A stretch of DNA of 64,000 nucleotides from Sulfurimonas marina (GTDB lineage Bacteria; Campylobacterota; Campylobacteria; Campylobacterales; Sulfurimonadaceae): contig NZ_CP041165.1 of assembly GCF_014905095.1 (NCBI RefSeq), positions 1,736,001-1,800,000 on the forward strand, written 5' to 3'. Made by a program: the position numbers and the translations under genes. Positions 5,633 through 60,945 of this stretch are shown piece by piece (position 1 is the first letter of the stretch; the number at the start of each line of letters is the position of its first letter). The notes under the pieces are model-generated. The model did no database searches, was not told the DNA's origin, and saw only the letters and a list, made by a program, of their open reading frames with translations.

Positions 5633-6997
5633 ATGGCAGATACAACACAAATAATTACCCTCTATACAGAACTGGCAAATAATCCACAAAAAGATTTTGG
5701 ATGGGATAAAGGCCTTGAAAATGCCAAGGCTCATCGTTATAAACAAGAATGGATTGAGAAACTTCCTTCTGAAGTATGGGAGTATTGTGCCGCAGTGGGT
5801 AATCCTTTTTCTCTGGGTGAGATTCAAGAAGGAGAGAGTGTTGTTGATCTTGGATGCGGTGCAGGTGTTGATTTACTCGTAAGTGCATTAAAAGTTGGAG
5901 ATAAAGGTCAGGCAATCGGCATAGACATAACTCCTAAGATGGTTGAAAAAGCGAAATATCACGCTGAACTTGCCGGACTTACAAATGTAATTGTAAAAGA
6001 ATCTAGCTTTGATGATACCGGTCTTGAAGAAAACAGCATAGATGTTGTGATCTCAAATGGAGCGATTAATTTAACGGCTTGTAAAGAGAGTGTCTTTGCT
6101 GAGATTCACAGAATACTAAAACCTAATGGAAGGTTGATGTTTGCAGATATGATCGATATCACAAAAAGCTCAAGTGAGTGTTGTTCCGAACAAGCAACTG
6201 CCTGCTGCTCTTCAGAACAAGAGGATTGGGCGAACTGTGTCGCCGGAACATTACGTAAAGATGAACTTATAAACATAATGAAGCAAGCCGGTTTTGAAAA
6301 TATTGAGTTTAAGGGCTTAACACATTACACAACAGCAGAGACTACACAAGGTGCCCTCTTCAGAGCCATCAAAAAACCTCTAGATGAAGTACGAAAAGAT
6401 TACTGGAATAATTTTTTTAATACAAGAGATTATACACAGGTACTATGGCACCAAACACACCCAAGCAGATCGCTTGAACAGATTCAACAATATGCATCTA
6501 AAGATGATCCTATTATAGATGTTGGCTGTGGAGCTTCTTTACTTGTTGATAACTTGATCGCAGAGGCATATAAGAACATCTCTTTACTTGATGCGGCTGC
6601 AGAACCATTGGAGACTGTCAAAAAAAGACTTGGTGAGAATGCAGAGATCCCTACTTTTAACTGTTCAGATATTCTCAACTTTAAACCGAAACAAAAGTTT
6701 AAAGTATGGCACGATAGAGCTATGTTTCACTTTTTACTAAACCCTTCAGACAGAAAAAAATATTTTGAAGCTTTAAAAGAAAGTTTACTGCCTGACGGTA
6801 TTGCAATCATAAATACTTTTGCAATAAACGGAGAAACAGAGTGTGCCGGTTTAAAAACAGCACAATATAGCAGCGATATTATCAAAAATGAACTGCCAAA
6901 AGGTTTGAGTTTGGTTAAAAGTGAAGAGTTCATCCATATTACACCAAAAAATACAGAACAAAAATATTGTGCATTCTTTATAAAGTCAGATATTTAA
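5633..6997 (+). CDS. Double SAM-dependent methyltransferase, ArsM-like domain fused to a second methyltransferase
   Basis: 454 residues with two class I methyltransferase domains. Domain 1 (about 20-245) follows the ArsM layout: motif I VVDLGCGAGVDLLVSA, then SNGAINLTACKESVFAEI, HRILKPNGRLMFADMI and WANCVAGTL. The position that is Cys in true arsenite methyltransferases (SNC) is Gly here, while the Cys of the NCVAG segment is kept. A short insert (about 178-195) adds two CC pairs, ECCSEQ and ACCSSEQ. Domain 2 (about 255-454) has PIIDVGCGASLLVDNLI and VWHDRAMFHFLL, the pattern of a separate SAM methyltransferase family found alone in many bacteria. It may act on arsenic, another metalloid or a thiol; the substrate is unproven. 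The gene is single and divergent from the efflux operon. Confidence 0.8.
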   Translation: MADTTQIITLYTELANNPQKDFGWDKGLENAKAHRYKQEWIEKLPSEVWEYCAAVGNPFSLGEIQEGESVVDLGCGAGVDLLVSALKVGDKGQAIGIDITPKMVEKAKYHAELAGLTNVIVKESSFDDTGLEENSIDVVISNGAINLTACKESVFAEIHRILKPNGRLMFADMIDITKSSSECCSEQATACCSSEQEDWANCVAGTLRKDELINIMKQAGFENIEFKGLTHYTTAETTQGALFRAIKKPLDEVRKDYWNNFFNTRDYTQVLWHQTHPSRSLEQIQQYASKDDPIIDVGCGASLLVDNLIAEAYKNISLLDAAAEPLETVKKRLGENAEIPTFNCSDILNFKPKQKFKVWHDRAMFHFLLNPSDRKKYFEALKESLLPDGIAIINTFAINGETECAGLKTAQYSSDIIKNELPKGLSLVKSEEFIHITPKNTEQKYCAFFIKSDI

Positions 6998-7039
6998 AAT
7001 AAAATATATAATTATTTTAGGATAAGGATAAGATATAAA

Positions 7040-7114
7040 TGGTGGTCACGATTGGACTTGAACCAACGACCACTTCCATGTCAAGGAAGCACTCTACCAC
7101 TGAGTTACGCGACC
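7040..7114 (-). tRNA. tRNA-Val (GAC)
   Basis: The reverse strand folds as a cloverleaf: acceptor GGTCGCG pairs with CGTGACC followed by A and an encoded CCA. The anticodon stem CTTCC/GGAAG encloses loop TTGACAT, giving anticodon GAC. The T-arm carries GGTTCAAGTCC. It stands alone between the methyltransferase and pckA. Confidence 0.96.
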
Positions 7115-8918: not shown

Positions 8919-8948
8919 AACAAAGACTACTTTTTAGTAGCCTTTGTT
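8919..8948. terminator. Bidirectional terminator between pckA and the dedA-like gene
   Basis: AACAAAGACTAC (8919-8930) pairs with GTAGCCTTTGTT (8937-8948) except for one mismatch, around a T-rich centre. It lies between the convergent ends of pckA and the DedA gene and overlaps the last codons of the latter. The runs of T and A on both sides suit termination in either direction. Confidence 0.6.
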
Positions 8949-9484
8949 AAATAGATCCAAATTAACCCCCCGATCGTAAAAACAATCACCGGTGCCAACC
9001 ATTTATTTTCAGATATATAGAGTGCAAATGCTTTAAGCGGTGCTCCAAAAAAGTAACTTGCAAGTCCAAATACAAGTGCCCATATAGCTGCCGCAAAAAA
9101 GTTAAGAAATGCAAACTTTTTAAAGTCATACTTTGTTAATGCAATTGCGATCGGAATAATCGTTTTAAGTCCATAGATATATTTTTGAATAAATATAACC
9201 CAGTCCCCGTGTTTCTTCATCATCATATGAGAAAGTGCCAGCTTTCGTCTATGTTTTCTAAGCCCCTCCATCATCATATGTTTTTGATTTCTAGTCAGCC
9301 AAAAAAGAAGTACATCCCCAAGCATATTACCCATAAAAGCAACTGCCATTGAAGTAGCTAAGTCCATTTTTCCCATGTAACTAAGAACTCCTGCAGCGAT
9401 CAGTCCTACAAAACCACCGCCAAGTGAGTATAAAAATAGTGCTATATATCCGTATGTAGCTAAAGAGCTAAATGTTTCTTCCAT
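8927..9484 (-). CDS. DedA family (SNARE-associated) membrane protein
   Basis: A 185-residue polytopic inner-membrane protein. It shows the DedA features: an N-terminal amphipathic stretch and GYIALFLYSLGGGFVGLIAA, FMGNMLGDVLLFWLTRN, then the central basic loop and IFIQKYIYGLKTIIPIAIAL, ending in a Trp-rich hydrophobic hairpin and a lysine tail. DedA/VTT proteins are implicated in recycling or flipping undecaprenyl phosphate and phospholipids. Which lipid this one handles cannot be told. It is transcribed alone or downstream of uvrB; a 135-base gap with a long stem-loop separates the two. Confidence 0.88.
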   Translation of the reverse strand: MEETFSSLATYGYIALFLYSLGGGFVGLIAAGVLSYMGKMDLATSMAVAFMGNMLGDVLLFWLTRNQKHMMMEGLRKHRRKLALSHMMMKKHGDWVIFIQKYIYGLKTIIPIAIALTKYDFKKFAFLNFFAAAIWALVFGLASYFFGAPLKAFALYISENKWLAPVIVFTIGGLIWIYLTKATKK

Positions 9485-9540
9485 TTGTAAATATTCCTAT
9501 TATTAATTTTTTAATCTGTTTTCTATTATTCTAGTTCAGT

Positions 9541-9605
9541 ATAGAGTTGTTTTCTAAGAGGCTCAGACCATAGGGAGGATTTGTCCTCTTATAAAATAAC
9601 TCTAT
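9541..9605. repeat. Long stem-loop with conserved 25-base loop, copy 1
   Basis: Arms at 9541-9560 and 9586-9605 are complementary at 18 of 20 positions (one is a G-T wobble on the plus strand). They enclose a 25-base loop at 9561-9585, beginning GCTCAGACCA and ending GGGAGGATTTGTC. The same loop, one base different, tops another long stem at 60819-60895. It lies 14 bases beyond the uvrB stop, between two minus-strand genes. No run of T follows on the minus strand, so an ordinary terminator is unlikely. Confidence 0.75.
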
Positions 9606-9619
9606 GCCGCTATAAAGAC

Positions 9620-11602
9620 TTACAGCTGTTTTATTTTTGCGATCTCATCACGAAGACGTGCAGCTTCTTCAAAGTTTAACTCTTTTGCAGCCTGTTTCAT
9701 TTTCAATGACAACTCTTTTACCACTGCTTTTTTCTCGCTAGCAGGCATTTTATCCATTTTTTTATGTTTTTGATACAATCCGCCGCCATCTTCAATCTTC
9801 AAGTTTTCATCGAGTGTTCTTTTTGTTGTTTTTGGAGTGATGCCATGCTCTTTGTTAAACTGCTCCTGTATCTCACGTCTGTATGCTGTTGTATCCATTG
9901 CGCGCTGCATTGAGCCCGTGACCTTGTTGGCATAAAGGATAACTCTTCCGTTTTCATTTCTTGCTGCACGCCCGATCGTTTGAATTAATGCTGTTTCGCT
10001 TCGTAAAAAGCCCTCTTTATCTGCATCTAATATAGCTACTAAACTCACTTCAGGCAGGTCTAAACCTTCACGAAGCAAGTTGATACCTATTAGTACATCA
10101 AACTCTCCAAGACGCAATGATCGGATGATCTGGTTACGCTCGATCGTATCTATATCCGAGTGCATATACTGTACCTTTATTCCAAGGTCTGCAAGATATT
10201 TTGTAAGTGCTTCAGCCATCTTTTTCGTAAGAACCGTAACAAGTATACGCTCATCTTTTTCGATGATTTTTTTGATCTCATCGTGAATATCTTCCACCTG
10301 GTTATCTGATGGTTTTACCTCAACGATAGGATCTAAGAGTCCAGTCGGACGAATAATCTGTTCCGCTTTTACAGCAGATCGCTCTAGTTCATACTCATTC
10401 GGTGTCGCTGAAACAAAAAGATAGTGCGGCGCTTTGTGAATATACTCGTCAAGTTTCAGAGGACGGTTATCTAGTGCTGAAGGAAGTCTAAAACCATACT
10501 CTACTAGCACCTCTTTTCTAGCCCTGTCCCCTGCATACATCCCTCTGTACTGAGGAAGTGAAACGTGTGATTCATCCACGATCACAAGATAATCTTTGTG
10601 ATTTACCTCAAAATAATCTAGCAATGTAAAAGGTGCTTCACCCGGTTTTTTATTTGTTAAAAGTCTTGAATAGTTCTCGATCCCTTTACACATACCCGTA
10701 GTCTCAAGCATCTCAAGATCAAACTCAACACGTTGTTTTAAACGCTGGTATTCAACAAGTTTTCCCTCTTTTTGAAAATATTCAAGCCTCTCATCAAGCT
10801 CCTCTTCAATTCTTTTAATAGCTAGCGCCATTTTGTCTTGAGAAACACTGAACTGGCTTGTTGCATAGATCGTAAAACTTTTATGCTCTTCGAGTTTTTT
10901 GTTATCAATCACGTCAAACGTATAGATAGCTTCGATCTCATCTCCAAAAAACTCAATGCGGATCGCTTCTTGTTCAAAGTACGGAGGATACACGTCAATA
11001 GACTCACCGTTTACACGAATATGCCCGCTGTCAAAGTATGAGTCGTTACGAGAGTAACCCATCTCTACCAAACGAAGCAACAGTTGTTTTTGATTGATCT
11101 CATCCCCTACTTCGATCGCTTGTACCATAGTCATATACTCTTCGGGATCTCCCAAACCATAGTTTGCAGAAACTGAAGCAATTACAATAACATCATCATA
11201 TGAAAGAAGATTTGCCGTAGAACTTAAACGAAGACGCTCAAGCTCATCATTGATCGCACTATCTTTTTCAATAAAAAGATCTTGACGGGGGATATACGCT
11301 TCAGGTTGATAATAATCGTAGTAAGATACAAAATACTCAACATGATTGTTTGGAAAAAACTGACGAAATTCAGAATAAAGCTGTGCCGCCAAAGTTTTAT
11401 TATGGGTCATAATGATCGTCGGGCGTTTTACTTTTTCGATGATTCTAGCCATTGTATGGGTTTTTCCACTTCCCGTTACACCTACTAGTGTTTGGTACTG
11501 GTTCCCTGCTAAAATCGAATTAGCTAACTTCTCGATCGCCTGAGGCTGATCTCCGGCTGGTTGATATGGTGATGCTACTGTAAAATTAGGTTCTTTTTTC
11601 AT
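9620..11602 (-). CDS. uvrB: UvrABC excision nuclease subunit B
   Basis: 660 residues, full length. It is the damage-verifying helicase-like subunit of nucleotide excision repair, loaded by UvrA and then recruiting UvrC. Seen: P-loop GVTGSGKT (about 43-50), [20 protein letters not shown], the damage-probing beta-hairpin region [33 protein letters not shown], helicase motif [17 protein letters not shown], and [12 protein letters not shown]. The C-terminal UVR motif for UvrC contact is at about 620-655 ([19 protein letters not shown]). It is divergent from the receptor gene at 11690. Confidence 0.98.
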
Positions 11603-59440: not shown

Positions 59441-60796
59441 TTATCTAGGTATTCCGCCTAAACCGCCGGGGCCACCCATTTGTCCCATCATAGACTGGAG
59501 CTGTTTCATACCGTTTTTACCAGAAAACTTCTTAGCCATTTTCCCGGCATTTTTAAATTGCTTTATCATACGGTTCACTTCAACAACTGTAAGTCCACAA
59601 CCGTTAGCAATTCTTTGTTTTCTTGAGTTATTTAACAGGTCAGGGTCTTCTCTCTCTTTAAGAGTCATCGAACTAACCATTGCTTTTATATTTTTTAATT
59701 CAGAGGAGTTATCAAAATCAAAATCTTTGATAGCTTTACTCATTCCACCCATACCTGGAATCATCCCCATGATAGAACTCATAGAACCCATTTTTTTCAT
59801 AGATTCCATCTGCTCTAAAAAGTCATTGAAGTTAAACTTCCCTTTTTGGATCTTTTTCGTTAATTTTTTTGCTTGTTTCTCATCGATAACATTTGCAGTT
59901 TTCTCCGCAAGTCCTTCAATATCTCCAAGACCCATTAAACGGTTAACAATACGTTCAGGTAAGAAAACTTCCAAGTCTTCCATTTTCTCACCAAGACCGA
60001 TAAATCTTAGAGGTACTTCTACTTGTGATGAAAGTCCAAGTGCTACCCCACCTTTAGAATCACCGTCGTATTTTGAAAGGATAACACCGTCAATACCTAT
60101 CTTCTCTTTAAATGTAGTTGCCGTTCTTACTGCATCTTGACCAGTTAAAGAATCTGCTACGTAAAAGATCTCATCAGGAGAAGCTACTTTTTTAACATTT
60201 TCAAGCTCTTCCATAAGCTCGTCATCAATAGCTAAACGTCCAGCCGTATCTATCAGTACTACATCGTAGATTTTAGAGTTTGCATATTCTAATGCTGATT
60301 TTACAACTTCTACAGGGTTTTTAGTCGCTTCATCTTCGTAAAGTTCAACTTCGATCTGTGTTGTGATCTGGCGTAACTGCTCAACCGCTGCTAAACGCTG
60401 TAAGTCAGCTGCAACAATTAAAACTTTTTTCTTTTTATTTTTAAGATAGTTTGCAAGTTTACCGGTAGTTGTTGTTTTACCAGAACCCTGTAAACCAGTC
60501 ATTAAGATTACTGTCGGAGGATTCGGTGCAAATACAAACCCTTTATTGCCGCCAACTTCAAGAAGATCTGTTAACGTCTCGCGAAGTGCTTCAAGGAACT
60601 GATCTTTTCCAATCCCTTTATCTTTTGTACGGTATTCAACTTTAGTGATTAACTCTTTTACAACTTTATGATTTACATCCGCTTTTAGTAAACTTTTTTT
60701 CAGCTCGTTTAATGCTTTAGATAATGCTTTTTCATCATCATGAAAACGGATCTTTTTTATTGCGCTTGTAAAACTATCTGTTAAAGTACCAAACAT
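59441..60796 (-). CDS. ffh: Signal recognition particle protein Ffh
   Basis: 451 residues. N domain (about 1-90), GTPase G domain with MTGLQGSGKTTTTGKLA (about 107-123), VLIVAADLQRLAAVEQL, VVLIDTAGRLAIDDELM, ILSKYDGDSKGGVALGLSSQ and FIGLGEKMEDLEVFLPERI. The Met-rich M domain (about 300-451) includes GSMSSIMGMIPGMGGMSK and the C-terminal MGQMGGPGGLGG. It binds 4.5S RNA and signal sequences and docks with FtsY. It is the first gene of the group leading to rplS. Confidence 0.98.
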   Translation of the reverse strand: MFGTLTDSFTSAIKKIRFHDDEKALSKALNELKKSLLKADVNHKVVKELITKVEYRTKDKGIGKDQFLEALRETLTDLLEVGGNKGFVFAPNPPTVILMTGLQGSGKTTTTGKLANYLKNKKKKVLIVAADLQRLAAVEQLRQITTQIEVELYEDEATKNPVEVVKSALEYANSKIYDVVLIDTAGRLAIDDELMEELENVKKVASPDEIFYVADSLTGQDAVRTATTFKEKIGIDGVILSKYDGDSKGGVALGLSSQVEVPLRFIGLGEKMEDLEVFLPERIVNRLMGLGDIEGLAEKTANVIDEKQAKKLTKKIQKGKFNFNDFLEQMESMKKMGSMSSIMGMIPGMGGMSKAIKDFDFDNSSELKNIKAMVSSMTLKEREDPDLLNNSRKQRIANGCGLTVVEVNRMIKQFKNAGKMAKKFSGKNGMKQLQSMMGQMGGPGGLGGIPR

Positions 60797-60818
60797 TGTA
60801 TTCCTTCATACATAAAAA

Positions 60819-60895
60819 AATTCTTGTTATATGATATATGTAACGCTCAGACCAGAGGGAGGATTTGTCGTTGCAGATATTATATAACAAGAATT
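60819..60895. repeat. Long stem-loop with conserved 25-base loop, copy 2
   Basis: Arms 60819-60844 and 60870-60895 are complementary at 23 of 26 positions; two of the three exceptions are G-T pairs on the plus strand. The loop at 60845-60869 is identical to that of 9561-9585 except one base (G for T at its eleventh place). The stems of the two copies share no obvious sequence. It lies upstream of ffh and downstream of the YgjP-like gene, both on the minus strand. Confidence 0.75.
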
Positions 60896-60945
60896 CTCAC
60901 AAAATTTTCGGGGATTATAGCAAAGGAGTGCTTTTTCTTTGCTTA

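Follow-up and report, generated by a model that had tools for sequence, protein, structure and literature searches.

The window (the whole 64,000-nt stretch of Sulfurimonas marina DNA that was analysed) carries on its + strand two copies of a 25-base loop which are identical at 24 of 25 positions and have the consensus GCTCAGACC-A[T/G]A-GGGAGGATTTGTC (Table 1). The first copy is located between the gene of a membrane protein and a reading frame which we take to be uvrB, a name given from general knowledge of the protein and not by a family search; close homologues of this frame were found in 88 of 100 congeners. The second copy lies ahead of ffh, the −10 box of which is conserved in the two closest species (G277 and G171). 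The preliminary description had reported both loops at the tips of long stems, and this was confirmed, with stems of about 22 and 26 pairs, to which the inner pairs are added, and no occurrence of the loop in shuffled sequences. The predicted folding energies of the + strand are −33.8 kcal/mol (z −4.8) for element 1 and −33.2 kcal/mol (z −7.6) for element 2, against −24.8 and −25.7 kcal/mol, respectively, for the minus strand. A covariance model of the element matched them in the host genome (G000) at C1:1745536-1745610 with 79.3 bits and at C1:1796820-1796894 with 81.7 bits. Elsewhere in the window, positions 6955-7078 (+) match the HPnc0260 antisense RNA of Rfam (RF02194, 65.8 bits) and overlap a tRNA on the opposite strand.

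Table 1 Features of the window around the two hairpin elements
Feature	Position	Strand	Basis or remark
VTT-domain (DedA-like) membrane protein gene	8927..9484	-	Pfam PF09335; start codon faces the 5' foot of element 1
Hairpin element 1	9539..9607	+ (motif strand)	stem of ~22 bp plus closing/inner pairs
Conserved 25-nt loop of element 1, GCTCAGACCATAGGGAGGATTTGTC	9561..9585	+	motif search
uvrB (presumed)	9620..11602	-	ORF; stop codon on the 3' side of element 1
ffh (SRP54)	59441..60796	-	Pfam SRP54 domains; element 2 antisense within its leader
Hairpin element 2	60818..60896	+ (motif strand)	stem of ~26 bp
Conserved 25-nt loop of element 2, GCTCAGACCAGAGGGAGGATTTGTC	60845..60869	+	motif search
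TATAAT −10 box of ffh	60914..60919	-	direct reading; just upstream of element 2 in gene sense

A dispersed hairpin family in Campylobacterota

Further copies in the genome and its relatives, which had been proposed as the test of a selected motif, were found in both. The host genome (2.26 Mb) contains 13 copies of the loop at ≤3 mismatches (none in the reversed control) and 19 copies according to the covariance model, the E-values of which are rough, each with a stem of about 22-27 bp. Thirteen copies are present in G277 and three decayed ones in G171. Among the Campylobacterales, the family was detected patchily, in 37 of 399 genomes and 14 of 87 genera, the copies counted per genome being at least so many; in a sample of the phylum, it was found in 8 of 298 genomes. 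A scan of all prokaryotes with one genome per species, many of them metagenome bins, provided at least 120 stretches, and all 80 titled entries among the matches listed belong to Campylobacterota. The loop is decayed in species with a single remnant copy. Neither the two elements of the window nor 27 other loci matched an Rfam family at the gathering score, in line with the preliminary description, the author of which knew no fitting class, and the sub-threshold matches were mostly to microRNA hairpins. We found no description of the hairpins in the literature. A plasmid or phage origin was rejected since one representative element had no match in plasmid and phage searches and viral contigs gave 0 matches. 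The dispersed hairpins with a fixed loop look like very small mobile palindromes that form a family not described so far.

The stems vary while their pairing is kept. In 11 aligned copies, 93.7% of the cells are paired, 22 of the 29 stem pairs show changes on both sides, and 84 cells are altered on both sides, against 27 in shuffles and also far fewer in slid controls; the suspected selection on structure is thus borne out by covariation. The stems of the 19 host copies are at best about 60% alike, which is about chance for AT-rich arms, and the arms of different host sites are unrelated, so that the loop is indeed kept while the stem changes. The further suggestion that this is the reverse of a copied DNA repeat did not hold: the elements are dispersed repeats of one family, some of them recently gained, and the arms have a common consensus (TAGACTTCTTnnnAAAACTATTTCGTGAG) in some other genomes, which indicates that the copies are related and have diverged rather than formed as hairpins by chance. 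Stem lengths range from 22 to 35 bp in the family. Within the loop, the strongest covariation links positions 8 and 14 (MI 0.58; CG 40, GC 6; also AT) and is also seen between the host and G277 at the same sites (mqn, nadB and speE), which implies that C8C9-NNN-G13G14 forms a small helix at the apex. At one site, pta, the first loop type is exchanged between close species for a second one, CUCGUGAGYCAAGGGAGG. At the foot, 14 of 57 copies have TAG and CGG on one base pair (4.8 in shuffles); TAG is enriched 26-29 nt from the loop in part of the copies, and the full GTAG is not general.

Strand asymmetry and position relative to promoters

Selection for folding acts on the motif strand alone. Counted as cells and not as independent events, the mismatches on the motif strand of 68 copies comprise 116 GT against 29 AC and 66 AG against 16 CT (about fourfold). 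The copies of the species-wide scan, a set which overlaps the former in some species, gave 152 GT against 46 AC (threefold) and 102 AG against 15 CT (nearly sevenfold). The motif strand provides the better fold in 63 of the 68 copies and, regardless of gene orientation, in 107 of the 123 species-wide copies. The excess of G-T and A-G mismatches together with this better fold in either gene orientation points to the folded motif strand as the selected form. Since these mismatches are tolerated by both DNA and RNA, the asymmetry alone does not separate the two.

The copies are situated just downstream of promoters. In Sulfurimonas, a start codon on the strand opposite to the motif lies within 150 nt in 66 of 68 copies, compared with 27 of 68 on the other side (gene starts were called by simple ORF rules). 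In gene sense, boxes resembling −10 elements are over-represented at 10-30 nt upstream (23 and 17, where about 12.5 each are expected), which places the element in the leader, with the motif on the template strand of the neighbouring gene. Outside Sulfurimonas, both orientations to the gene occur, and intervals between convergent genes rarely hold copies in these other lineages. A ribosome-binding role of the Shine-Dalgarno-like GGGAGGA noted in the loop is unsupported, as one loop class carries GCGAGGA and the motif is on the template strand in Sulfurimonas. Judged by Pfam domains, the neighbours in the host genome include thiG, riboflavin synthase, hemN-like, transketolase, ffh, aspartate-oxidase-like FAD protein, queD-like, mog-like, pta and dnaJ genes; no neighbouring gene that might encode a trans-acting factor recurs convincingly across lineages. 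Inverted pairs of hairpins occur at FGGY, at mog and in other genomes. Two-hairpin loci of this kind are located at 688807-688988 of the host genome, at C1:429383-429541 of G277 and at L296, L299, L302, L306 and L212, with the 5' feet facing each other in most.

Recent gains and the favoured reading

Both elements of the window were gained recently, as their sites are empty in the two closest species; this rests on a comparison of species, not of strains, with one genome per species. The spacer between uvrB and the VTT gene is 15 nt long in G277 and G171 and about 137 nt in the host, and the ffh leader of these two species is short (about 30-35 nt after the −10 box) and contains neither arm; the Ffh protein of G277 is 98% identical to that of the host. 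In other species, the same genes carry copies with different stems. When the host, G277 and G171 are compared, the shared sites at S4, queD and thiG have identical stems, those at mqn, hemN and ribE show compensated changes, and mog shows a pair and an apparent inversion. In four other species, different hairpins are present in the uvrB-VTT spacer, and in others it contains unrelated repeats, which marks it as an insertion hot spot. The thiG leader looks like a general hot spot as well. Unrelated intergenic repeats of the types GGAACCCGTAC...GTGCGGGC, GGGACAAATGTCCC/GGGGACACAAGTTTCCCC and GTTAGCGTAGGTAGCGG were observed in other species in this spacer (L368, L370, L376, L377, L382) or in the thiG leader (L222, L232, L233).

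We favour, at about an even chance, a new family of REP/MITE-like mobile hairpins of Campylobacterota that are read as a folded single strand by a putative protein. The element of about 75-95 bp would fold on one strand into a hairpin of nearly fixed length, consisting of a TAG...CGG foot (in part of the copies), a freely drifting stem of about 24-27 bp and a purine-rich conserved apical loop with the pairs 8-14 and 9-13 as its cap. A putative strand-specific protein would recognize the foot and the loop and bring the element, by insertion or copying, into intergenic DNA close to promoters, where cruciforms may be easily extruded. Single-stranded DNA would be the active form. Against this reading, old copies have retained loop and pairing through drift, for which past mobility does not suffice and each site must have a function.

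Copying of an arm from the target (snap-back) was rejected because neither arm is present in the empty sites. No parent stem was found, as no other host copy resembles the ffh arm, and this arm has no second copy in the host genome outside its own element. The arms were also rejected as guides to other loci, since about 200 kb of the host genome gave no further match to them; in five relatives, the ffh arm gave single matches with 3 mismatches, at the level of the reversed control. No intermediate was found, and no target duplication is evident at the empty uvrB and ffh sites, the boundaries of which are blurred by divergence; like the missing parent stem, this speaks against the favoured reading. 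A rather unlikely though conceivable scheme is a class of mobile or rewritten hairpins which pass on only foot and loop, receive a new stem of nearly fixed length whenever they insert, and are used by an enzyme that is specific for single strands and belongs neither to the Y1 nor to the reverse-transcriptase families. Clean empty sites and pairs of close species make both the origin of the stem and the partner protein testable.

The main alternative, less probable than the mobile-hairpin reading and still a serious possibility, is a structured non-coding RNA or an RNA site for protein binding on the motif strand which acts via the conserved loop, antisense over gene leaders in Sulfurimonas and as part of the leader itself elsewhere. 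The covariation and the tolerance of GU and GA are typical of RNA, loop classes switch through compensatory change, the site lies between promoter and start codon, and orthologous sites are common to several species. The conserved internal loops also look RNA-like and speak against mobile DNA. However, motif and gene lie on opposite strands in Sulfurimonas but often on one strand in other lineages, Rfam provided no match at the gathering score, and a motif-strand transcript from a promoter at its own foot is unsupported in the antisense class, where −10 boxes on that strand at the foot are not enriched (7 against 6.5 expected). It is improbable that the element acts in the sense transcript, regulating the downstream mRNA as a hairpin of its leader (5' stabilizer, RNase III site or translation control). 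The nearby start codons and upstream −10 boxes would suit such a role, and the sense strand also folds strongly, but the Sulfurimonas mismatches spoil the sense RNA as A-C and C-T and suit the other strand, and the orientation flips between lineages.

Comparison with known systems

A true REP/REPIN family moved by the TnpA-REP (RAYT) transposase is very improbable, even though strand-specific folded hairpins, an NTAG-like foot in part of the copies, inverted dimers and the intergenic location are all found here (cf. PMC3733652, PMC8266576), together with CCA-like 3' tails in some lineages. The Y1_Tnp domain (PF01797), which scored in controls such as E. coli, gave 0 matches in the host and in two other genomes with many element copies (G013 and G014). 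A RAYT partner was therefore rejected for the host, no mobilizing protein was found for the elements, and the family was not filed as REP. Retroelements (group II introns, retrons and DGRs) were rejected as well, the reverse transcriptase domain (PF00078) being absent from the host and from most element-carrying genomes. Ordinary bidirectional terminators or chance palindromes, suggested by long AT-rich intergenic hairpins, have a negligible probability and are refuted by the extra genome copies, the stem covariation and the 19 covariance-model copies. The T-tract pattern is missing at the foot, the elements stand at gene starts and rarely between convergent genes, and the loop is conserved across families.

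Campylobacterota gain a family of short hairpins, either mobile or regulatory, with evidence of structural selection on one strand and of recent gains ahead of housekeeping genes such as ffh. Like REP/REPIN sequences, the elements are intergenic palindromes, in part with a TAG-like foot, and the loop may outweigh the stem sequence in importance. TnpA-REP reads single-stranded DNA hairpins by recognizing loop and foot, and the stem sequence can matter little (PMC8266576, PMC3733652). In contrast to REPs, the present elements carry a conserved 25-nt loop on a free and much longer stem (GTAG-family stems have 6-13 bp; PMC3733652) and occur in tens of copies instead of hundreds. NEMIS/Correia, ERIC, RUP and other bacterial MITEs are likewise mobile hairpins of about 100 bp near genes and are often co-transcribed, but they have conserved terminal inverted repeats, many with target duplication and TA ends, whereas the arms differ here at every site and no duplication is evident. 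The elements resemble integron attC sites in that the structure is kept while the stem sequence varies, one strand folds and unpaired features stand at fixed places; they differ from them in being scattered singly, with no cassette array seen, and in having the apical loop as the conserved part.
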